IMG/VR virus record: IMGVR_UViG_3300038505_000010
Span: 12,586-35,477 of that record
DNA length: 22,892 nucleotides
Source: a virus
Strand: one strand, 5' to 3'
Within the stretch, counting starts at the first letter, position 1. Each line of letters starts with the position of its first letter. The notes beneath the pieces were generated by a model that ran no database searches, was not told the DNA's origin, and saw only the letters and a list, made by a program, of their open reading frames with translations. Shown here piece by piece: positions 1,188 to 16,291 of the stretch. Both the position numbers and the translations under genes were made by a program.

Positions 1188-2594
1188 ATGAGAATACTGA
1201 AAAAAATAGTTGGCGACTATAATGGTCAGCTTTCTTATGAAAAGCTCGCAGATGCTTTTAAGGTTGCACCAGCATTAAGTAGTAAAGCGGTGAGATTGTA
1301 TCCTCAATTTTCTCTCACAAACCTAACAGAAGGATTAGGATATATCTATGCAACAGATAAAGCAAAAGAGGAAAATATCAATGGATATTATGCCGAATGG
1401 AAACTAATTGGTGAGCCTAATATGCTATGCAACTTTGTTGCAGGTGGTAGTACAGGTACTAACTTGGGTGTTAATAATAGCTCTTTTTATGTATGTTTAG
1501 ATGAGCAGTTTTTTAATTCAGAAGAAGTAGGTAAATTAGAAAACGGCAAACTTATCTATTTTGAAGATAATGGGACTATGCTTACTTCGGGTGTATTTCG
1601 TTATCGTGTAAAACTGCTTACTAATTCACCATCAGATAGCGTATCCGATATTTGGATAAGTGCTGGAAGAAAGATACAATATATGTATCCTGCAACCAGT
1701 GAGTTCAATGATAGAGGCTATTTTAAGATGCGTTATAGCGAAGAGCTACATAGAGAGTATGTTACAATGTTCCGTTCACAAGTAAGTATTTCTGGTACTG
1801 CTAATATGACCAAATATATTCTAATGGACGATATTAGCAAAGAAAGATTTATTATGGACGAGTATGAAAAACAGCTTTTGCAAAAAGTTGCTTATGACAA
1901 AGAAAACATACTTATCTATGGTAAAAGTACTGTAAATGAAGATGGGGTAGTTCATTTAACCAATCCTAATACAAAACAAAAACTTTACACAGGCAACGGA
2001 TTAGAAAATCAAATTAGCTCATCTTCAAGGGTTTCTTATACTTCACTTTCTAAACAACTGCTAAAAGATATTATTGGCGAAGTGGAATATAGGGCAGGTA
2101 AAGCAGAAGACGGAGTAAATATCTTGCTTGTAACAGGTAGCCGTGGTAAGCGTATCTTTATGGATTTAATGGAAGATAGCTTAAAAGTAGGGGATAGTGT
2201 ATATGCTACACGTTCAGGGAACAACATAACTCTTGGTGGTAACTTTACCAAGTTTATTTATGGTAATAGCACTATTACGGTAAGTGTAAGTCAGCTACTT
2301 GACTACAAAAACCAAGCTGATGAACTTGATGAATATGGTTATCCTTTAAGCAGTAGCAAGATGTTTTTTATAGATAGAGGCACTTATGATGGGCAACCTA
2401 ACATTAGTGTATTCTATCAAAGTGGCTTAAAACTTATTATCAATGATATTATTGGGGTAGGTGGTAAAGATGGAAAAAGCAGTGGTGTTGTTAGCTCTCC
2501 TATTCATGGCTCAAGTAAGATAGCATTAGGAACAATAGGATTAAAACTATTAAATCCTGATAGCTGTATGCTTTTAGAACGTTCTATTATTTAA
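1188..2594 (+). CDS. Major capsid protein, crAss-like (HK97-fold family), 468 aa
   Basis: Forms the icosahedral shell. The length suits crAss-like major capsid proteins (roughly 470-500 aa). The segments that suggest the family are MRYSEELHREYVTMF (about residues 180-195), LIYGKSTVNEDG (about 242-253), then YTGNGLENQISSSS (about 266-280) and the following LLVTGSRGKRIFMDLM (about 313-328). This is the order GKS...G, tGaGl-eQI, LLTGe-G...F that I associate with this family. The C-terminal part is rich in Gly/Ser and beta-strand-like. The start lies 2 bases after the preceding stop. Codon choice differs from the flanks: CGT and GGT are frequent, whereas later genes prefer AGA/AGG, as expected for a very highly expressed gene. 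The family call is from memory of conserved patterns, not a search. Confidence 0.88.
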   Translation: MRILKKIVGDYNGQLSYEKLADAFKVAPALSSKAVRLYPQFSLTNLTEGLGYIYATDKAKEENINGYYAEWKLIGEPNMLCNFVAGGSTGTNLGVNNSSFYVCLDEQFFNSEEVGKLENGKLIYFEDNGTMLTSGVFRYRVKLLTNSPSDSVSDIWISAGRKIQYMYPATSEFNDRGYFKMRYSEELHREYVTMFRSQVSISGTANMTKYILMDDISKERFIMDEYEKQLLQKVAYDKENILIYGKSTVNEDGVVHLTNPNTKQKLYTGNGLENQISSSSRVSYTSLSKQLLKDIIGEVEYRAGKAEDGVNILLVTGSRGKRIFMDLMEDSLKVGDSVYATRSGNNITLGGNFTKFIYGNSTITVSVSQLLDYKNQADELDEYGYPLSSSKMFFIDRGTYDGQPNISVFYQSGLKLIINDIIGVGGKDGKSSGVVSSPIHGSSKIALGTIGLKLLNPDSCMLLERSII

Positions 2595-3449: not shown

Positions 3450-4084
3450 ATAGTTTAGAGATATATGAGCGTTGTGTAATAGATTTAGATAAGTATGATA
3501 CACCTACTTTTGAGATAGTAGATTTTAACAGGTATGCTGAAAGAGCTTTATACGAATATATTAACGAAAAGTATAAAGAGTTTGAAATGGTTCAAAAGCG
3601 TACTGATGATTTACGTCAATTTGTAGTGTTTAATACTTTTCCTAATACAAACAACGTTTATATTACTTTACCTAACGATTATTTAAGGCTATTGTCTGTT
3701 TGGTATTACATAGAAGATTTTGATTGTAATACTGATAGGTGGGTAATAGTGCAAAAGACAACAGCGGATAAATTAGGGTATAGCGAGAATAACTACTATT
3801 GGAAACCTAAGCTTACTAATCCGCAATATCAGATTATAGGAAACAATTTGTATTTTAGAGTAGGAGATGATGATGCTTCAAGAATATTACAAGTAAGATT
3901 GGAGTATATTGCAATACCTACTTTATATTACATAGACCCTATAACCTTAGTGCCAAGTAATCCACCTTATACTGATGAAGTAGATATGCAGATAATAGAT
4001 AAGATTGTTAGGATATTTCAAAGTGCTACGAATATACAGGGTTATCAAGTTTCTACACAAGAGTTAAGTTTCAAAAATAATTAA
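3446..4084 (+). CDS. Neck/tail ring (connector) protein, probable first ring, 212 aa
   Basis: Probably forms a ring beneath the portal. The N-terminal helical half (IYERCVIDLDKYD, then FNRYAERALYEYINEKYKEFE) is followed by beta-rich sequence (VVFNTFPNTNNVYITLPNDY, LYFRVGDDD) and a C-terminal helix (DMQIIDKIVRIFQ). This helix, beta-sandwich, helix layout and size resemble podovirus head-completion / tail-tubular A type proteins and the ring proteins of crAss-like virions. It is the first of three similar-sized proteins in the window (also 5199-5855 and 6355-6993). It starts inside the last codons of the preceding gene (ATGA overlap). The specific ring number is an inference from gene order. 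Confidence 0.68.
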   Translation: MNSLEIYERCVIDLDKYDTPTFEIVDFNRYAERALYEYINEKYKEFEMVQKRTDDLRQFVVFNTFPNTNNVYITLPNDYLRLLSVWYYIEDFDCNTDRWVIVQKTTADKLGYSENNYYWKPKLTNPQYQIIGNNLYFRVGDDDASRILQVRLEYIAIPTLYYIDPITLVPSNPPYTDEVDMQIIDKIVRIFQSATNIQGYQVSTQELSFKNN

Positions 4085-4096
4085 CCTTAAAAAAAT

Positions 4097-4888
4097 ATGG
4101 CAATCAATATTCCAACAAGACGAATGGTAGTGAATACATCACAACAACTACAAGTGTTTGTGTATAATAACACTACATTAGCACCTGCCGCCTGGGGTCC
4201 AAACACCTTTGTAAGAATGGTAGGGTTTGCAGAGTTTAAGCAAGCAGATTTGATAAGTAACACACAAGTACCTTATACTGCACCTGTAGCACACGTAGTA
4301 GATATAAATTTTCCTACTGCACCTGTTGTGGGAGATGAGGTAACTGTAAGCATAGTAAGCCGAAATATACAAGGTTTTGGCGCTTATGTATCTACTTTGG
4401 AAGCTAATAGAGATATGGTACATCATTTAGTACAAAGTCCTATGACAGCTACACAATTGCGAGATACTATATTTCAATTGTATCAGAACAAGTCAGACAT
4501 AGGTAGATTTTTTACACTTTCTACCATAGGTGCTACAACAATACGTGTAACTGCTCAATTGGGTATAGAGGTAGAGCCCAAAGTAATAGGATATAATGCT
4601 ACTGTAACTACTGTTACACCTTTCAACGTAGGTACAGGACATTATGATGTAATACACCCTTTTGTTACGGAGTGTAAAGCTATGCCTTATGCACCACTTG
4701 CAGAAAAGTATAATGTACCTATTAAAGGAAGACAATATAGGACATATCATTGGCTTGTAAGGGGATTAGATGGAAGTCCCGTAGGGTTAAGTATAGCTTC
4801 GCAAATTTCAGAAAGGCAGTTAGAGTATGTATTATATGTAGATACTACTTTGACTACGCTGATAACACAGCTGAATGCGATAGTTTAA
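4097..4888 (+). CDS. Beta-rich virion protein, possible tail-barrel/sheath component, 263 aa
   Basis: Sequence is dominated by alternating hydrophobic/polar beta strands rich in Thr, Val and Pro, with few long helices; one helix-prone stretch runs about 112-137 (MTATQLRDTIFQLYQNK). Composition is much less charged and less lysine-rich than neighbouring proteins, typical of a stable structural protein. Its place after the first ring protein and before the other ring genes corresponds to a barrel-forming tail component in characterised crAss-like virions; that assignment is positional and tentative, and a capsid decoration protein is an alternative. The start follows an A-rich leader with no Shine-Dalgarno. 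It is the last gene before the terminator at 4904-4936. Confidence 0.65.
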   Translation: MAINIPTRRMVVNTSQQLQVFVYNNTTLAPAAWGPNTFVRMVGFAEFKQADLISNTQVPYTAPVAHVVDINFPTAPVVGDEVTVSIVSRNIQGFGAYVSTLEANRDMVHHLVQSPMTATQLRDTIFQLYQNKSDIGRFFTLSTIGATTIRVTAQLGIEVEPKVIGYNATVTTVTPFNVGTGHYDVIHPFVTECKAMPYAPLAEKYNVPIKGRQYRTYHWLVRGLDGSPVGLSIASQISERQLEYVLYVDTTLTTLITQLNAIV

Positions 4889-4903
4889 TTTGGTATAAAA
4901 ATA

Positions 4904-4936
4904 AAAAAGGGGTATTCAGTGAATATCCCTTTTTTT
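4904..4936 (+). terminator. Rho-independent terminator after the head-gene block
   Basis: The arms AAAAAGGGGTATTC (4904-4917) and GAATATCCCTTTTT (4921-4934) pair over 14 positions with one G-T wobble around an AGT loop, and a run of seven T follows the C's (4930-4936). It lies 15 bases after the TAA of the 263-aa gene. Because the left arm begins with A's, it could also act on the opposite strand, though no gene is found there. Confidence 0.9.
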
Positions 4937-4999
4937 ATTGCTTTTTTGTCCAATCGCTCAGCTTTTTTTATTTTAATTCCATAGTGATACGACGAAAGA

Positions 5000-5029
5000 A
5001 AGCCCTACATACGTTTGTATGTAGAGCTT
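5000..5029 (+). terminator. Second hairpin, possible back-up terminator or RNA structure
   Basis: AGCCCTACATAC (5001-5012) pairs with GTATGTAGAGCT (5017-5028) at 11 of 12 positions around a GTTT loop, with an extra A-T closing pair outside. It is followed by TGTTATTATTATTAA rather than a clean T-run, so it would be a weak terminator. It may instead be an RNA-processing or protein-binding hairpin. Confidence 0.5.
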
Positions 5030-5057
5030 GTTATTATTATTAAAAGCGGATAGCTTT

Positions 5058-5113
5058 CAAGTTGTCTATTATACAAAGAACGATTTTATAAATAATAAAT
5101 AGGAGACAACTTG
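5058..5113 (+). repeat. Perfect 10-base inverted repeat (possible operator or hairpin)
   Basis: CAAGTTGTCT at 5058-5067 is exactly reverse-complementary to AGACAACTTG at 5104-5113. The spacer is 36 bases and AT-rich. Pairing can continue inward (CTATT with AATAG) if three bases bulge, giving a longer stem. A small AAAGC/GCTTT hairpin sits directly before it. It could be a regulator-binding site or an RNA leader structure for the downstream genes. Confidence 0.55.
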
Positions 5114-5142
5114 TTTGCTGTTGCAAATATAATACAGAATTT

Positions 5143-5171
5143 TTTTTATTGCAAATTTTTTTTTAGATTTG
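5143..5171 (+). promoter_or_regulatory. Candidate promoter for the tail-gene block
   Basis: TAGATTTG at 5164-5171 fits the Bacteroidota -7 consensus TAnnTTTG and lies 27 bases before the ATG at 5199. No good -33 box is at the usual distance. The stretch TTTTTATT, then CAAA, a T-run and TAGATTTG closely matches the sequence at 12205-12236. The motif may be read by a phage-encoded rather than the host polymerase. Confidence 0.4.
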
Positions 5172-5198
5172 TTAGTAATTTGAGAATATTGAAAAAAT

Positions 5199-6995: not shown

Positions 6996-9900
6996 ATGAG
7001 TGAAAGACCACATCAAATAACGGGTTTTAATAAAGGGTTAAATAAAGATGTACATATTTCTTTGTTAGAACCTGAATTTTTACGAGAGGCTTACAATTTT
7101 AGGTTATACACCGAGGATGGTAATGCTTTTATTACTGCTAATCTAAAAGGTACAGAACTTATTAGCTCGCTTACTGCTGATTTTGTACCAATAGGATATG
7201 TAGTAGCAAGAGAGTTTTGTTATATCTTTTCGCACAATCCTTTGACAGGTGAAGGCGAAATAGGAATGTTTCCAAGTTTAGACATATCTAATGTTGCTTT
7301 AATAGGTACAGCAGGAGTAGAAATAAACAATTTACCTATTAGCTATACATATAAGCCTTTGTACAATTTTTACTATCCACCTTCCACAAATAGAACAGCA
7401 TTAAGACATACAAACTTTAATTTTAGTTTAGAGTACCCTGTAGAAGCAGAAGCAAGATTAGATTATGATGGAAGCTATAATTTATATTTTGTAGATTTTA
7501 ACAATAAAATAAGAGTAATAAATACAGGAATAGCAAGACAAGAAAATGGTTTATACAAGCTAACAGAACGAATGTATGAACCTAATAATTTTTTCGATAC
7601 AATGCTACTTATACTAACATCAGACGAGGTAGCTAAAATAGATTATTTGTATCAAGAAGATATAGGAAGGTTAAGATGTGCTACATATATCTATCATATT
7701 GCATATAGTAATGATAAGATAAATAAGACGGCTATTATATCAAGTAGTATGCCAGTAGTGGTATATGAGAGGCGAAATAATAGTATAGATATGGGTAGTG
7801 AGGATAGTAGATATGGTAATACAGAAATAGCTTTTAGTACATCAGATAATTATGAAGAAACCTTTGCACAGATAACTAATGTAATGCAAGTAAGTGGTGT
7901 AGATACACAATTTAGGTATATGCACGTTTTTTTTGAAATTATCTATGGTATAGGCAATAAAGAGTATGGAGTATATGAGTTTCAAGAACCTATTGATATT
8001 ACAGGAAATACTATCAGTTTTAAGCATACAGGATTAGAACCGCTAAATAGCTTATCGGATAAAGCTATAAATATATTTTATGCACAAATAGCAACAGCCA
8101 AAAGTGTAGCACAATTAGATAGCAGGTTATTGCTTTTTCATACAAAGACTGATGATGCAGAAAAGCAGTTTAAGGCATTAGAAAACTATGCTCAAAGAAT
8201 ACAAGTAAGGCATATAAAGGTAGATTTAGGGAAGCTATCAGATTTTGAATATAGTTGGCAAAACGCTTATATAGAGCAGACTTTACCGCAACTAAACTTA
8301 TCTAATTCTGGGTATCAAAATCCTTATCATATCTATTACAATTTAGGTTATCATTATGGAGAAATATATCAATTTGGTATCCAATACATACTAAAAGGTA
8401 ATGTATTTAGCAATGTCTTTTTATTAAGTGGAGCAGATGATTTAAATTGTATTACATCATTTAGCAGTTTAACAAATGATAAAGGGATATATCGTTTTCC
8501 TAAGAGGGGAGTAAATGGATTTGATGGCAGTAGTTTTACAAGCAATTTGCATACAGACCATTTGGTAGCAATGTTTCCTACTTTCAGTTTCCCTGATTGG
8601 AACTTAACATTACCAAATCCTGATGAAAATGAAGCAAACGAGTTTGTCAGGGATAATGTAATAGGATTTCGTTTAGTAAGGTTAGAAAGAAAGAAAGATT
8701 GCTTTGGTCAAGGCATTGTTGTCCCTTGCTACTCTGTACCACCTTTTAAGTGGGGCTTTGATAGTCAGCCATTAAGAGAACTTACAGTTTTTTACAATTA
8801 TCATTATGGATATAGCACAAGATACCCCGCTTCGGATTTGTATTATTTTGTGAGCAATTCTACATATAGAAAAAGGTTAAGCGATTTTTTAAGGGATAGC
8901 AAGAACGTAAGGAAAGTAATACCTTTACCTTCGGGCTTGTTAGATGGAGCAGATAGATTAGAGGGAACTATAGAATTCAATAATTTTCAAAGTATTATTA
9001 TATCACAAGCCTACCGAGACCCTTTTAGGGTTGCTTATGTAAGTATGGATATAATAGCAGATGAGCGTTTATATGGAAGTGTTTTAAACAATAATGACAT
9101 TAGCTTTGAAGTAACAGGTAGTTATTTATTAAAGCCTACTTATCAGTTTGTTACTTTAACCGATTTTTATAATACAGGAAACAGTGCTGGTGTAAGTTAT
9201 TGTATGCAGATGGCTTTTTTTAATGAAGCCTATCCTCCTATATTTCCGCATTTAGCGGGCAATGAAAACGATAGTTATGCAAGGATAAATAATTATCTTT
9301 TTAAGGGGAAAAGTTATTTTGTTTATGCAGGCAGACCAGCAAGCAATGAAAAATTTACTTCTCAAATAAATACACACGACGAAGGAGGATTTAAGATTTT
9401 TCACCCTAATCAGAGTGGAGGTGAAAATGGTTGGGTAGTACCTATGCAGACAAATTGGAATGCTTATGTAGGAATAACTTTGGGATATGGTTGGGAAACG
9501 CATACTGCACCATTAAGTAGGACAGGAGCATTAGAAGTAAATGGAGTACCTACAAATTTATATTTTAGGGATACAGCATTAGAAGAGCTATACACACCAC
9601 CAAGCCTTAATATGATAAGTCCTCAACCAGGGGATACCTCTAATCCTATGGATTGTTATTATTTGAGTATAGGAACATCAGGGGGTTATTATTATGACCC
9701 AGGGAAACAATATATGAATTATGATATAAATTATCAAGATTTTCATATACACGACAGAGCTTGGATAGTAGATTTATTTACCAGCAGTACAGGTAGGACA
9801 ACTAATATATACAATTGGTATGATGGACTTACGCAAGTAAAGTTTTTCATTCCTATCACTTTAAACTTATCTAAACAAGAAGTAGCAAGTAATAGCTATT

Positions 9901-11492
9901 TTATCAGGGGGTATAATGGAGATAATTATCAGGGGGTATGGTATAGGAAGTTTTGGTTTAGCAATTACAGACATAGTTTTGGTGGTAGTAATGGAGATAG
10001 ATATGTATATGGTGGAGTAATAACAATGGCTAAATGCGACAACAATTACAATCCATATAGTAGGGTAAGGGAATTATGGAGTGTAACAGAAAGAGAGCCA
10101 ATGAGTGAGGGGACACAAGGTAATAGGAGAGCATTTTTTCCTGTATATGCTAATTCACTTATGTATAACCAAGCATCACCACCAAGAATAAAACCAAGTG
10201 ATGGAGTATATTTTTCTGCTACAAAACTAAATGTATTTTTCTATGCTAAAAACTATCATACTTTTGAGAGTTTGTTTTATGAGTTAGGGGGTAATTCACA
10301 ATGGGGCGGATATATTGTAAATTTGTTAAACGTAAAAGAAATATTAGAAATACAGAATTATTTTCCTACAAGATTATACTATTCAGAAAAGCATATTAAC
10401 AATAGTTTTATAGACAATTATAGAGTAGTATATCCATTTAGTTTTCAGGATTACGATTTAAGTTTGGGGAAAGGTACAGCAGTAAGAGTATTAAATAATA
10501 GGTTGTATATTATTCAGGAAGATGGAGTAAGTTTAGTAAGTTTTAATGAAAGGCAAGCTATTAGTGAGGAAGGTAGTGTATATATAGATACTACATCAGT
10601 ATTAAGTCCCTATCAAGCGACTTTGTCAAGAAAATATGGTAGTATTCATAGGGATAGTGTAATAGCTACAGACAATAGCATATATTTTATAGATGCTAAA
10701 CGCAGGTCTATATGTAGGATAGAAGAGGGAGGAGTTAGGGATTTAAGTGAAGGTAGGATAAGTAGTTTTTTAAATGAGATATTTGATGTATATGGAGAAG
10801 ATACGAGGGAATTATCAGGGGCGATATATGTAAGGAGTTTTTACAATAGGAGATATGATGAGATAAATTTTGTGATATATAAGAGGAGAAATCCTGCGGT
10901 AGCATACAATATAGTATTTAGTGAGAAGCTAAATGTGTTTATAGTACATAGTTATTTACCTGCAATAGGGTTTAGTATTTTTGATGATTATTATACTTTA
11001 TTTGACAATGAGCCTATTATTACATTTCCTAATGATAGTCCTGTATATCAGAATGGTTTATATAATATATATCAGAATGATGTAAGCAATATAAGGAATA
11101 GGTTTTACGGAACGGATTATCCTATGTATTTTCATTACATAGTAAATACAGATTATCAAATGCAAAAGATATTTGATAATATAACTATTTTATCTAATCA
11201 TATACTACCTACAAGGTTGTTTTATAGGATTACTAATGAAAATGGTATTGTATTACAAGATACTATTTACTATGCTAATGGAATACCTTTGGGAGTGATA
11301 AATAATATAGTAAATAGAATTAGTTATAGGGAACATACTGCAAGATTTGCTATACCATATACAGATAAAAGTTCTAATATAGTAGGTAGGAGGTATAGGG
11401 ATAAGGCAATAGAGATAGGTATATATTATGATACCAATGACTATGTAGAGATACAACGTATTATTACGTATTTCAGATATAGTTTTAGTTAG
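6996..11492 (+). CDS. Tail muzzle / stabilization-type protein, 1498 aa
   Basis: Closes the distal tail and probably gates DNA exit. The N-terminus has the characteristic QITGFNKGLNKDVHISLLEP followed by EFLREAYNFRLYTEDGN (about 7-44), as in crAss-like 'stabilization' proteins. Most of the chain is beta-rich with many Tyr, Asn and Gly. Near residues 1150-1265 a conserved-looking block reads PFSFQDYDLSLGKGTAVRVL, then SLVSFNERQ, YGSIHRDSVIATDNSIYFID and CRIEEGGVRDLSEGRIS, resembling repeated beta-propeller-like blades also seen in podovirus gp10-like proteins. The end (about 1310-1380) contains HSYLPAIGFSIFDDYYTLFD and fyg-type sequence typical of the family. The length is in the range expected for crAss muzzle proteins. 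Arg is mostly AGA/AGG. The start follows a TAGTTATG junction. Confidence 0.85.
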   Translation: MSERPHQITGFNKGLNKDVHISLLEPEFLREAYNFRLYTEDGNAFITANLKGTELISSLTADFVPIGYVVAREFCYIFSHNPLTGEGEIGMFPSLDISNVALIGTAGVEINNLPISYTYKPLYNFYYPPSTNRTALRHTNFNFSLEYPVEAEARLDYDGSYNLYFVDFNNKIRVINTGIARQENGLYKLTERMYEPNNFFDTMLLILTSDEVAKIDYLYQEDIGRLRCATYIYHIAYSNDKINKTAIISSSMPVVVYERRNNSIDMGSEDSRYGNTEIAFSTSDNYEETFAQITNVMQVSGVDTQFRYMHVFFEIIYGIGNKEYGVYEFQEPIDITGNTISFKHTGLEPLNSLSDKAINIFYAQIATAKSVAQLDSRLLLFHTKTDDAEKQFKALENYAQRIQVRHIKVDLGKLSDFEYSWQNAYIEQTLPQLNLSNSGYQNPYHIYYNLGYHYGEIYQFGIQYILKGNVFSNVFLLSGADDLNCITSFSSLTNDKGIYRFPKRGVNGFDGSSFTSNLHTDHLVAMFPTFSFPDWNLTLPNPDENEANEFVRDNVIGFRLVRLERKKDCFGQGIVVPCYSVPPFKWGFDSQPLRELTVFYNYHYGYSTRYPASDLYYFVSNSTYRKRLSDFLRDSKNVRKVIPLPSGLLDGADRLEGTIEFNNFQSIIISQAYRDPFRVAYVSMDIIADERLYGSVLNNNDISFEVTGSYLLKPTYQFVTLTDFYNTGNSAGVSYCMQMAFFNEAYPPIFPHLAGNENDSYARINNYLFKGKSYFVYAGRPASNEKFTSQINTHDEGGFKIFHPNQSGGENGWVVPMQTNWNAYVGITLGYGWETHTAPLSRTGALEVNGVPTNLYFRDTALEELYTPPSLNMISPQPGDTSNPMDCYYLSIGTSGGYYYDPGKQYMNYDINYQDFHIHDRAWIVDLFTSSTGRTTNIYNWYDGLTQVKFFIPITLNLSKQEVASNSYFIRGYNGDNYQGVWYRKFWFSNYRHSFGGSNGDRYVYGGVITMAKCDNNYNPYSRVRELWSVTEREPMSEGTQGNRRAFFPVYANSLMYNQASPPRIKPSDGVYFSATKLNVFFYAKNYHTFESLFYELGGNSQWGGYIVNLLNVKEILEIQNYFPTRLYYSEKHINNSFIDNYRVVYPFSFQDYDLSLGKGTAVRVLNNRLYIIQEDGVSLVSFNERQAISEEGSVYIDTTSVLSPYQATLSRKYGSIHRDSVIATDNSIYFIDAKRRSICRIEEGGVRDLSEGRISSFLNEIFDVYGEDTRELSGAIYVRSFYNRRYDEINFVIYKRRNPAVAYNIVFSEKLNVFIVHSYLPAIGFSIFDDYYTLFDNEPIITFPNDSPVYQNGLYNIYQNDVSNIRNRFYGTDYPMYFHYIVNTDYQMQKIFDNITILSNHILPTRLFYRITNENGIVLQDTIYYANGIPLGVINNIVNRISYREHTARFAIPYTDKSSNIVGRRYRDKAIEIGIYYDTNDYVEIQRIITYFRYSFS

Positions 11493-12270: not shown

Positions 12271-13728
12271 ATGAAAAAGAAACTAAAATACTATCAAAAA
12301 GCTGGCAAATATACAAATGTAAAGCCAAGTGGAGGTGAAACAGGACAAGTGTTTCAAAGCATTGCAAGTCAAAATCCTGATTTGTTAAATTACAAAAATG
12401 CTTTTTTAAGCGAGTATCCTGATGCAGACGAAGATGTTGCAAATAGTGTAGCAATAATAGCTTATAGTAAGAAAGCAAATAATCCCGCTATTAGAAAGCA
12501 ATTTTTGACTAAATTAGGAGGTGGAGATTATTTTAAGGGATATTCTTTGTACAATGAGTTTATCAATCAAAACGAGGAAGTTTATGAAAAAGAGCCTAAA
12601 AGAGAAATTAAATATAATAAAAAGCAAAAAGGAGATAAGTATCAACAAGGAAATGAAACTATGAAAAAAGATTTTGAGTATATTTCAGAAGATATGTATA
12701 ACACTAACTTAAAAGATTTGTCAAATATGAAAAAGAAAATGCAAAAAGGACAAATGTTCCCTTCATTCCCTATTGCTACACCTACATCAAACAAAGGTGT
12801 TAGTGATGCTGAATATAATTCTAATAGAGAGTTATATTTAAGAGCAGACAAGCTAATATACGATTTAGCTAAGTTAGAAGAAGATATGAAAGAAAGTGCT
12901 TATTACTTGCAAAAAAATAAGAATTATGAAGTTGAAAACACTATATCTGCTTTGAAAAAAAGGAGAAATGAGATTTTAAGTGAGTATAATTTTATTAAAG
13001 ATAGAATAGGAGATGATATAGATGAGATTATCCCTAATGAAATGTTTAATCGTGTAATAAATTATGATTTTGTAAAAGGAGAAACTAAAAATCCTAAATC
13101 TAATGAAATAGCTTATGATAGAGCTATTGAAATGACAACGGATAAAAAACAAAGTAAAAAGCAGTCAAGGCAAGATTTAGCAAATGTTTCTACAAAAGAC
13201 TTATGGGAAATGCTAACCCAAAGTTCTTGGCAAGAAGCTAAAAAGCAAGGTTTAACAGATGGCAGTGCAGAACAAAATTTAGCTTTAAGAACAAAACTTA
13301 TAGAAGGCAATGCTGATTTGTTAAAACAAAAGTTTAGTGGTAAAGAATTGCAATTTGCCAAAGGTGGGAAAGTATATGGAGCAAGTCATCAAGAAGGAGG
13401 AGTACCTGCGGTAGATGCTAATACAGGAGAACAAGTAGCAGAAGTAGAAGGAGGGGAAAGAATATTTAGTAGAGAGGATACGCAAGCTATGGAGCAGATG
13501 GTTATGCAAATAGCAAATGCAAAAAGCGAGCAAGAAGGCAATCAACTTGCTATGCAATTAGGATATATGGTAGCGGAGATGATTATGGAACAAATGCAAA
13601 GACAGGGCAAAGAGAATATGGGACAAGATATGGAAGAAATGCCTATGAAAGAAGAAGCTATGCCTATGGCTATGGGTGGAAGAAAGCTAAAAGCAAATAG
13701 AGTATTAGAGTTATTAAATAGCTATTAA
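12271..13728 (+). CDS. Cargo-like virion protein with Met-rich C-terminus, 485 aa
   Basis: Function unknown. It starts MKKKLKY, like two neighbours. Residues 34-106 form a domain that recurs in the 821-aa protein (182-249), with core KLGGGDYFKGYSLYN. Residues 107-350 are charged and helical. Residues 361-403 contain LQFAKGGKVYGASHQEGGVP and, 13 residues on, EVEGGERIFSREDTQ; this GG..SH..GGV...EGGE layout recurs near the ends of many phage virion and tape-measure-like proteins as far as I recall. From about 407 to 468 the chain is unusually rich in Met, and it ends MGGRKLKANRVLELLNSY. The gene has a candidate promoter upstream and a tRNA gene 7 bases after its stop. The context suggests a packaged internal protein. 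Confidence 0.72.
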   Translation: MKKKLKYYQKAGKYTNVKPSGGETGQVFQSIASQNPDLLNYKNAFLSEYPDADEDVANSVAIIAYSKKANNPAIRKQFLTKLGGGDYFKGYSLYNEFINQNEEVYEKEPKREIKYNKKQKGDKYQQGNETMKKDFEYISEDMYNTNLKDLSNMKKKMQKGQMFPSFPIATPTSNKGVSDAEYNSNRELYLRADKLIYDLAKLEEDMKESAYYLQKNKNYEVENTISALKKRRNEILSEYNFIKDRIGDDIDEIIPNEMFNRVINYDFVKGETKNPKSNEIAYDRAIEMTTDKKQSKKQSRQDLANVSTKDLWEMLTQSSWQEAKKQGLTDGSAEQNLALRTKLIEGNADLLKQKFSGKELQFAKGGKVYGASHQEGGVPAVDANTGEQVAEVEGGERIFSREDTQAMEQMVMQIANAKSEQEGNQLAMQLGYMVAEMIMEQMQRQGKENMGQDMEEMPMKEEAMPMAMGGRKLKANRVLELLNSY

Positions 13729-13735
13729 AAGCTAA

Positions 13736-13809
13736 TCCCCCATAGCTCAATTGGTTAGAGCACCTGACTCATAATCAGAAGGTTGTAGGTTCAAGTCCTG
13801 CTGGGGGAA
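13736..13809 (+). tRNA. tRNA with anticodon CAU, probably tRNA-Ile2 (AUA decoding)
   Basis: A full cloverleaf can be drawn: acceptor TCCCCCA with TGGGGGA (7 pairs), D stem GCTC/GAGC, anticodon stem CCTGA/TCAGA with a C-A mismatch at 27-43, loop CTCATAA, variable loop AGGTT, T arm GTAGG-TTCAAGT-CCTGC, discriminator A. The 74-base gene does not encode CCA. It lacks the C1/A72 mismatch and GGG/CCC pairs of initiator tRNA. CAU can be elongator Met or the lysidine-modified Ile2; C4-G69 and C5-G68 are present, which I recall as recognition elements of the lysidine synthase TilS, favouring Ile2. It lies between two virion genes on the same strand, so it is probably cut from a longer transcript. Confidence 0.93.
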
Positions 13810-13825
13810 CTAAACAAGAAATATT

Positions 13826-16291
13826 ATGAAAAAGAAATCAAAATTTTCTGCTTATTTAAGAAAACCTACGTACTTAAGTGGAGGGTCTATTACAGGATTG
13901 TTAAGTAGTATGGGTGGTGGAAATATGTCAGATATAACAAACTTATTAGGGGGTTTATTAGGTAACAATCAGCAACAAGGTTCTGTAACCCCTGGATCTG
14001 GATTAGGAAGTATTGCAAAACCTTTTGTAGATAAGATAGAAGACCCTACAACAAATGCAATTCTTACAGGATTGACACAAGGAGCAGGAGGATTATTAAA
14101 CTTATTAAATCAGAATTTAGATAAGAAAATGCAACCTAATACGGATTTATTAGCGGAGATAAGCAAGGCACAACAATCTAAAAAGTTAAAAGAGCCACAA
14201 GCACAAACATTGTTTGAAACAACAAGAAGTAAATATAGAGATTTAGTAGAAGCATCTTTAATACAAGAACCTACGGATAGATTGTATTATAGAGCAAAAG
14301 GTATAGACCCAACAAAAATAGATTTTAGTAAATCTATTGATTTTGGAGATTATGATTTTGTTTTTAAGGACAATCCTGTTGCTATGTCTTATGCAAAAGC
14401 TATGAAGCGTAGCTTTCCTGATATGGACAATCAATTGATAGAGGTATCGGTAGGAGGTATGCTTGATGATGAAGATAGGTATAAGTTATTTGATAAGTTA
14501 GGGAAAGGAGACCATTCAAAAGGGTATGATTTATATAATGCTTTGATAAATAGGAATAAGGATAAGTATGAGTTTTTAGATATGGGTGGGCAAAATACAC
14601 ATAGTAAAGATGGGAGACTTACAGCGTTAAGTGAGAATGATAGGAGAATGAAGTTTGCCTCGTATGAGCCTATTGAACCAATAGAAGTTAAACCTGAACC
14701 CGAACCTGAACCCGAACCTGAACCCGAACCTAAACCTGAACCTGAACCTATTAAAGAACCTATTAAAGAGCCTATTAAAGAGCCTATTAAAGAAACAAAG
14801 GTAGAAACACCTATTGAAGAAAAACCTGTTGAGCCTACATTAACAAAGCAAAAATTGCCTTATACACCTTATCAATTGCAAAAGCAATACAATGCTTTGC
14901 AAGGGTTATTAAGTGGTGTAGATTTAGTGAGGGCAAGGTTATTAGGCAATGATGCTTTCAGAAAATTACAGAAGTTAAGAAGACCTGATGACCCTTTGCA
15001 AGTAAATGTAAAACCAGCAGAGAAAAGTACATTAGAAAATGAAAAGAGAACGATAGATGAAAATATAGACAAGGGATTAAGAGTAGTTAAAGGAGCAACA
15101 GGAAACTTGCAGAGTTTATTGTCTTCAGCACAAAATATGATTGGTAAGGGAGTAGAAGCAAAGCAAAAGTTAATGACAGAAGAAGAAAATAGGTTTAAGA
15201 ATGATTACTATAACAGAGAGTTTCAGCAATTAAAGGATATAGATATACAAAATCAATTGTATAAAAGACAACAAAATAAAGAGATGTATGATGAAGCAAA
15301 AGAGAATTTGAAAAATGCGGCATTAAAAGCATCTATGATGCAACAACAAAATTTGCAAAAATTAAATAATATATTAAGTGAAAATTTACAGAATAGACGT
15401 TTGCATAGTAAGCAGGTATATGATTCTATGCGGGTTTATCGTGGAGCAAAGAAAGACTATTTAGAGCAAATGAAAGCCTCTCACCCTGAATTTTTTTACA
15501 AGAAAGATAATAATGGAAATTATGTAAAGACAAGTGCAGAAGAGCAACAAAAGATGCTTGCAGAATGGGAAAAAGATTTTGATACGGGAGCAGGTAAAGA
15601 ATATGCTAATCTTGTTAATGATGTAATGAATTATGGAGGTAAAGGATTTTTAGGAGCATTTAGACGTAACAAAGGTTATTTACCATATAGTATTGAAGAA
15701 AGCAATGATAATACACTTACTTTGGAAAGTGGTACTATAAATGAACAAAATAATACAAATAATACAACTACAAATAATAGTGTATTATCTAATAATCAAA
15801 ACACACAATATAGTAATAACAATCAACAAAGGTATAATAGCATAGCAACAGACAACTATAATATAGGGGTTAATTTATTTTCAGGAAATAGTAGAATACA
15901 AACACCTTCTATTATATCTAATCAAAATACTACCTCTAATAACAATATATTTTCTAATAGTAATACAAACCCTAATTTGCAAATGCTATATCCTTACCTA
16001 TTTGGATATAATAATAATAAAGTATATCAGGGTTCAGGGAAAATGGATATAGACAATGAGTATAGAGAGGTAATGCAATTGATGAAACTTTTACAAGATA
16101 AAGAGCAAAGCAGTAAGAAAAGTAAAAGAAATAATGTTGTTATCAATAATAGTTATTTAGATAGGCTTATCGCAAATTTGCAAAAGACAGATGTTTTAAT
16201 GATGTCCCAGGACAATCAGTTCAGGCAAAACATTTATGATAGCATTAGACGTGCTACAGATGTAGCAAGAAGCACATTCTTAAAAATGTAA
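13826..16291 (+). CDS. Large modular cargo-like virion protein, 821 aa
   Basis: Function unknown. Domains in order: MKKKSKF start and TYLSGGS (15-21); a Gly/Leu-rich segment with ITNLLGGLLGNN (about 37-48); helical charged sequence; a segment at 182-249 shared with the 485-aa protein (core KLGKGDHSKGYDLYN); a Pro-rich linker of EP and PIKE repeats (281-337); a long helical, coiled-coil-like part (about 395-565) rich in Gln, Lys and Glu; an Asn/Gln-rich low-complexity region (about 635-731); and a helical C-terminal end. This build suits an elongated internal virion protein. It starts 16 bases after the tRNA, so it depends on the same transcript or on tRNA processing for its 5' end. Confidence 0.75.
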   Translation: MKKKSKFSAYLRKPTYLSGGSITGLLSSMGGGNMSDITNLLGGLLGNNQQQGSVTPGSGLGSIAKPFVDKIEDPTTNAILTGLTQGAGGLLNLLNQNLDKKMQPNTDLLAEISKAQQSKKLKEPQAQTLFETTRSKYRDLVEASLIQEPTDRLYYRAKGIDPTKIDFSKSIDFGDYDFVFKDNPVAMSYAKAMKRSFPDMDNQLIEVSVGGMLDDEDRYKLFDKLGKGDHSKGYDLYNALINRNKDKYEFLDMGGQNTHSKDGRLTALSENDRRMKFASYEPIEPIEVKPEPEPEPEPEPEPKPEPEPIKEPIKEPIKEPIKETKVETPIEEKPVEPTLTKQKLPYTPYQLQKQYNALQGLLSGVDLVRARLLGNDAFRKLQKLRRPDDPLQVNVKPAEKSTLENEKRTIDENIDKGLRVVKGATGNLQSLLSSAQNMIGKGVEAKQKLMTEEENRFKNDYYNREFQQLKDIDIQNQLYKRQQNKEMYDEAKENLKNAALKASMMQQQNLQKLNNILSENLQNRRLHSKQVYDSMRVYRGAKKDYLEQMKASHPEFFYKKDNNGNYVKTSAEEQQKMLAEWEKDFDTGAGKEYANLVNDVMNYGGKGFLGAFRRNKGYLPYSIEESNDNTLTLESGTINEQNNTNNTTTNNSVLSNNQNTQYSNNNQQRYNSIATDNYNIGVNLFSGNSRIQTPSIISNQNTTSNNNIFSNSNTNPNLQMLYPYLFGYNNNKVYQGSGKMDIDNEYREVMQLMKLLQDKEQSSKKSKRNNVVINNSYLDRLIANLQKTDVLMMSQDNQFRQNIYDSIRRATDVARSTFLKM
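14666..14836 (+). repeat. EP/PIKE tandem-repeat linker region
   Basis: The DNA has GAACCT/GAACCC hexamers (about 14689-14746) encoding an alternating Glu-Pro tract, directly followed by four 12-base units CCTATTAAAGA(A/G) at 14747-14794 encoding PIKE. Both stay in frame within the 821-aa gene. Such tracts are usually extended, stiff spacers and change length by slippage. Confidence 0.92.

Follow-up and report, generated by a model that had tools for sequence, protein, structure and literature searches.

The DNA analysed here is a stretch of 22,892 bases, referred to below as the window, and covers the late region of a Crassvirales-type phage. It contains one tRNA gene with the anticodon CAU, which its sequence identifies with good support as an AUA-decoding tRNA-Ile2. 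Phage Ile2 tRNAs have long been known, and what is unusual in this case is the address inside an operon of particle genes. Computation directly yielded the tRNA with its anticodon, the Ile2 character of the sequence, the location in the operon, and a high AUA usage throughout the genome. We consider it probable that the tRNA serves the phage as a reader of AUA. It would be co-transcribed with the virion genes, cut from the polycistronic transcript by host tRNA-processing enzymes, and provided with CCA by the host; host TilS would then convert C34 to lysidine, and the tRNA would be charged with isoleucine and read AUA. Selection for AUA-reading capacity may account for its presence.

The tRNA gene

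ARAGORN recognized positions 13736-13809 of the forward strand as a full cloverleaf tRNA, and the Rfam model RF00005 matched it over its full length with 70.7 bits (E 7e-14), above the gathering score of 29. With these two programs, it was the sole RNA feature in the window, and it was also the sole tRNA in the 35,477-base record containing the window, as was its counterpart in the 72,795-base record of a sister phage. No CCA is encoded. An earlier note, made from the sequence alone, had described a CAU tRNA with C4-G69 and C5-G68 at this location, and both pairs were indeed found, at 13739-13805 and 13740-13804 (Table 1). Only one of 74 nucleotides differs between the window and sister tRNAs: at 27:43, the sister has a U-A pair and the window has C x A. 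Since this pair is non-Watson-Crick in most reference Ile2 tRNAs, the mismatch need not harm the tRNA. Single-sequence RNA folding was uninformative, as natural tRNAs also fold poorly (Prevotella Ile2, z -0.07).

Table 1. Coordinates of the tRNA, its parts, and the surrounding genes in the window
Feature	Position	Strand	Basis
Major head (capsid) protein gene	1188..2594	+	PHROG 11589, 1e-34
crAss muzzle protein gene, 1498 aa; reference point for virion operon and lineage	6996..11492	+	Pfam crAss_MUZ, 5e-45
Upstream 485-aa ORF, putative virion protein	12271..13728	+	Position
7-nt spacer, stop codon of the 485-aa ORF to tRNA 5' end	13729..13735	+	Sequence
tRNA gene, CAU, most likely tRNA-Ile2	13736..13809	+	ARAGORN, Rfam, covariance models
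Acceptor stem, 5' strand UCCCCCA (U1 C2 C3 C4 C5 C6 A7)	13736..13742	+	Position table
C4 and C5, TilS/IleRS determinants	13739-13740	+	PMC9976931, PMC12514573
Anticodon arm; 27:43 pair = 13763 x 13779, C x A	13763..13779	+	Position table
Anticodon loop CUCAUAA; anticodon CAU at 13770-13772; A37, A38	13768..13774	+	ARAGORN, position table
Acceptor stem, 3' strand UGGGGGA, and discriminator A73 (13809)	13802..13809	+	G68 at 13804, G69 at 13805
16-nt A/U-rich spacer CUAAACAAGAAAUAUU, tRNA 3' end to ATG of the 821-aa ORF	13810..13825	+	Sequence
Downstream 821-aa ORF, putative virion protein	13826..16291	+	Position

Assignment to tRNA-Ile2

A CAU anticodon is common to tRNA-Ile2, elongator tRNA-Met, and initiator tRNA-fMet. 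The window tRNA was compared with CAU tRNAs from E. coli, T4, a Karamvirus, Aeromonas, Halomonas, Sinorhizobium, Latilactobacillus, Rossellomorea, Niallia, Cetobacterium, and several Bacteroidales. Each of the three classes is represented once in Niallia and once in Prevotella sp. oral taxon 299. The C4:G69 pair occurred in 14 of 14 reference Ile2 tRNAs and C5:G68 in 11 of 14, while neither was present in any of the 13 Met/fMet references, with class labels that were set in this analysis, partly from the same base pairs, for all references but those of E. coli, T4, and the Karamvirus. The window tRNA has both pairs. The Ile2 references without C5:G68, from Bacteroides, Phocaeicola, and Prevotella, have U5-G68. 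C4:G69 and C5:G68 are the TilS determinants of E. coli, and U4-A69/A5-U68 are Met determinants (PMC12514573, PMC9976931); TilS specificity varies between bacteria (PMC12514573), and the determinants of this phage's host may differ from those of E. coli. The minor Ile determinants U12-A23, A37, A38, and A73 are present as well. A further minor determinant, C29-G41, is absent, which speaks somewhat against Ile2; U29-A41 stands in its place, and the Bacteroidales Ile2 tRNAs likewise do not have C-G there. At position 32, Bacteroidales Ile2 tRNAs have C and Met tRNAs have U; the window tRNA has C32.

Covariance models for Ile2 and elongator Met, purpose-built here from few sequences, gave the window tRNA 85.2 bits as Ile2 and 75.8 bits as Met, with corresponding scores of 88.5 and 79.4 bits for the sister tRNA. 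The controls were classed as expected, with 62.0 vs 55.5 bits for the held-out T4 tRNA-Ile and 80.7 vs 96.5 bits for the E. coli tRNA-Met. Leave-one-out profiles rightly classed 26 of 27 references, the sole miss being the T4 tRNA-Ile with its shifted D arm, and assigned the window tRNA to Ile2 by 15 bits. The margin is below that of most Ile2 tRNAs because the Ile2 references have other pairs at 1:72 and 2:71 than the U-A and C-G of the window tRNA. Among E. coli tRNAs, tRNA-Ile matched best, and the nearest phage match was a Karamvirus CAU tRNA annotated as Ile or Met (88% over 69 nt). The determinants, covariance models, and leave-one-out profiles thus bear out the earlier suggestion of a likely Ile2.

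An initiator tRNA-fMet was ruled out, in agreement with the same note, which had seen no initiator features: U1-A72 is paired, 11:24 is C-G rather than A-U, and the anticodon stem (29-31:39-41) is not G-C rich and does not have the GGG/CCC form. It is very improbable that the tRNA is an elongator tRNA-Met(CAU) that delivers methionine to AUG codons. ARAGORN labels the tRNA as Met by default, but it gives the same label to the E. coli tRNA-Ile2 and the T4 tRNA-Ile. U29-A41 and C3-G70 are common to the window tRNA and the E. coli elongator Met, whereas the U4-A69/A5-U68 of proteobacterial Met and the G4-C69/G5-C68 of Bacteroidales and Niallia Met are both absent, and 2:71 is C-G instead of the usual G-C. 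The Met model scored 9.4 bits below the Ile2 model, and AUG usage is ordinary (22 per 1000 codons).

The anticodon loop also bears on the idea that the tRNA makes up for host tRNA-Ile2 that an anticodon nuclease has degraded. Such a role in defence evasion has been proposed for phage tRNAs in general, with support in mycobacteriophages (PMC10264068), and it predicts altered anticodon loops. Here, the loop CUCAUAA is identical to that of every Ile2 reference, and this analysis identified no nuclease that targets Ile2, which makes nuclease evasion an improbable role.

Operon setting

The assignment to Crassvirales follows from the crAss-type head (PHROG 11589) and muzzle (Pfam crAss_MUZ) proteins, and tblastn matched Crassvirales head proteins at 23-28% identity. 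A portal gene (P22_portal match) lies upstream of the major head gene, which is followed by small virion genes, the muzzle gene, and a series of long genes without assignment. At 3669-4118 of retrieved locus L047, the phage encodes a RepL-like plasmid replication protein (PF05732, 5e-10), and this gene lies upstream of the portal gene. The largest gap in the operon, 310 bases at 4889-5198 between virion genes, has no feature assigned.

The gap between the two ORFs flanking the tRNA was given as 90 bases in the earlier note and measures 97 nt (7 + 74 + 16). With the tRNA subtracted, 23 nt are left, which is close to the usual, tight spacing in the operon (mostly -26 to 21 nt). The 485-aa and 821-aa ORFs are probably virion genes, judging by where they lie, downstream of the muzzle gene. 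Neither protein had an informative PHROG or Pfam family match, and tblastn against annotated phages returned nothing for either. The PHROG and Pfam matches of the 821-aa protein were rejected as low complexity, since they fall on a Pro-Glu repeat (residues about 285-345). A domain of 72 aa is common to the two proteins (E = 5e-8 for the pair, at 35% identity), which may thus be related particle proteins. The tRNA accordingly separates two genes that carry copies of one domain.

Position among relatives

Seventy-two loci around muzzle homologues were retrieved, the sister included. Only the sister had a tRNA within 9 kb of the muzzle gene, compared with none of the other 71 loci. Among 40 relatives searched whole, 27 carry tRNAs, 330 in total, of which an even spread would place about 43 near the muzzle gene, where 0 were observed. 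Because tRNAs cluster, a more cautious test with one position per genome was used, giving P = 0.014. The depletion indicates that tRNAs generally avoid this module and that the window tRNA is an exception. Its location inside the virion operon, described in the earlier note, is a genuinely rare one. The sister record is 98-99% identical to the window in this region. A scan for a near-exact tRNA-core pattern gave no match in 84,980 bacterial genomes, hence no donor or host was identified, and among viral contigs it matched the sister only.

In the early region of the sister phage, a repeated gene family with the motif M[EK]FI[IV]EL..L...PCE[RK]YL..F was observed, the members of which lie close together (locus L048, 14947-15525, 18960-19538, and 19612-19998; locus L049, 232-1011).

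The position, unique among relatives, would suit a recently captured passenger tRNA of little function, as would the broken 27:43 pair and the one change between the sisters, a rate no slower than that of the neighbourhood. However, in both phages the fold is intact and the main Ile2 determinants are retained, the 27:43 pair is of little weight given the reference Ile2 tRNAs, and this is the only tRNA kept. We therefore regard a mere passenger as unlikely, although somewhat less so than nuclease evasion.

Transcription and processing

Scans found no terminator near the tRNA and no credible promoter close to it, so the tRNA is most simply co-transcribed with its neighbours and excised. A promoter of its own was considered and rejected, as sigma-70-like sites were fewer than in shuffled sequences and no Bacteroidota-type site was nearby. 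With an RNase P cut, 7 nt would remain behind the upstream stop codon, and 3' processing would leave the 821-aa mRNA with a 16-nt leader; this A/U-rich leader resembles those of other genes. For the suggestion of the earlier note that excision may set the relative amounts of the 485-aa and 821-aa proteins, the anatomy leaves room, but nothing supports it directly.

It is doubtful that the phage retains the tRNA chiefly for RNA processing, with an excision that cuts the mRNA and sets the relative amounts of the two proteins. The exact packing, 7 nt past a stop codon and 16 nt ahead of a start codon, the domain common to the flanking proteins, and the lack of a tRNA around the muzzle gene of 71 relatives would agree with such a role. 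On the other hand, an ordinary full Ile2 sequence is unnecessary for cutting, the 23-nt gap without the tRNA would be in line with the neighbouring gaps, and independent conservation is lacking, since the only conserved case comes from a sister that is nearly identical. Equally doubtful is a dual-purpose punctuation, in which a tRNA placed between domain-sharing virion genes would split the late mRNA on excision and tune the protein ratio in addition to decoding AUA.

AUA codon usage

Decoding of AUA, the function that we favour, was considered against the codon usage of the phage. AUA is its commonest isoleucine codon, with 43 per 1000 codons in the window and 49-51 per 1000 across the sampled genome, the highest usage among 11 crAss-like phages sampled. 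By comparison, the 39 per 1000 of Borrelia burgdorferi is at the upper end of the bacteria in PMC12514573. The AUA share of isoleucine codons was 0.59-0.63, compared with 0.48-0.52 expected from fourfold sites. The earlier note had described AUA as very frequent in the surrounding genes, which is true of the genome as a whole but not of the two genes flanking the tRNA, where the values of 22.6 and 25.5 per 1000 are among the lowest in the window. It had also proposed that the tRNA relieves a bottleneck in late protein synthesis. That proposal is borne out only in part. Usage is high, but it is high everywhere, equal in early and late genes, and not specially so in late or neighbouring genes; two other Ile2-carrying crAss-like phages, moreover, show no consistent AUA excess, with AUA at 0.25 (low) in cr7_1 and 0.47 (mildly raised) in cr272_1.

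The major head protein gene has only 19.2 AUA per 1000 (9 of 34 isoleucine codons vs 0.62, p = 9e-5), also avoids UUA and GGA, and has a codon usage unlike that of its neighbours. Highly expressed bacterial genes avoid AUA (PMC12514573), and the avoidance in the head gene fits AUA being a slow codon, indicating that strong expression still selects against it. The GUA share is 0.78, an enrichment as strong as that of AUA, and the phage has no GUA tRNA; the excess of A-ending codons is thus general, and AUA is not specially enriched. Since GUA is equally enriched and cr7_1 is Ile2-bearing yet AUA-poor, the AUA excess was dropped as proof of co-adaptation with the tRNA. The codon data fit a phage with a large AUA-reading need, without proving that this need selected the tRNA.

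Relation to known systems

The closest counterparts are the tRNA-Ile(CAU) genes of T4-like phages (T4 t002; tRNA-Ile of Karamvirus fGh-Ecl01), which are likewise phage CAU tRNAs with C4-G69 and C5-G68. The T4 gene is one of eight clustered tRNA genes, whereas the window tRNA stands alone in a virion operon, and its phage belongs to another order. Of the T4-like genomes with tRNAs examined in PMC1524935, all have an Ile2 tRNA. Within Crassvirales, the CAU tRNAs of cr7_1 and cr272_1 are also Ile2-type by profile, and that of cr7_1 also by covariance model. They are nearly identical to Bacteroidales Ile2 tRNAs (94.6%), differ from the window tRNA in sequence and lineage, and lie far from the major head gene. 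In cr272_1, the same CAU tRNA occurs at both record ends (2-75 and 98528-98601; loci L021 and L028), which is probably a terminal assembly overlap, and ARAGORN also calls a doubtful tmRNA at these ends.

A partial precedent for the placement of a tRNA in the late region is provided by cr52_1, whose single suppressor tRNA(CUA) is located in the structural and packaging region and ends some 14 nt ahead of the large terminase start codon. That tRNA is a stop-codon suppressor ahead of the terminase, while the window tRNA comes after the muzzle gene. The large terminase gene of cr52_1 itself has in-frame TAG codons (locus L038, tRNA region 1500-1590). The E. coli thrU-tyrU-glyT-thrT-tufB operon is a mixed tRNA-mRNA operon in which tRNA is cut from a transcript with protein genes; it is cellular, whereas the operon considered here belongs to a phage and excision of its tRNA is putative. 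The bacterial tRNA-Ile2/TilS system uses the same determinants and anticodon, but the window version is phage-borne, and the modifying enzyme must be that of the host; TilS had no match among the phage proteins scanned.

Outside the T4-like phages, the window thus contributes a crAss-like lineage that has a lone Ile2 tRNA and the top AUA usage in a small sample. With one tRNA and one codon, it is a simple case for the question of why phages keep tRNAs, and the position in the virion operon makes the effect of tRNA processing on late mRNA directly testable if the host is found.
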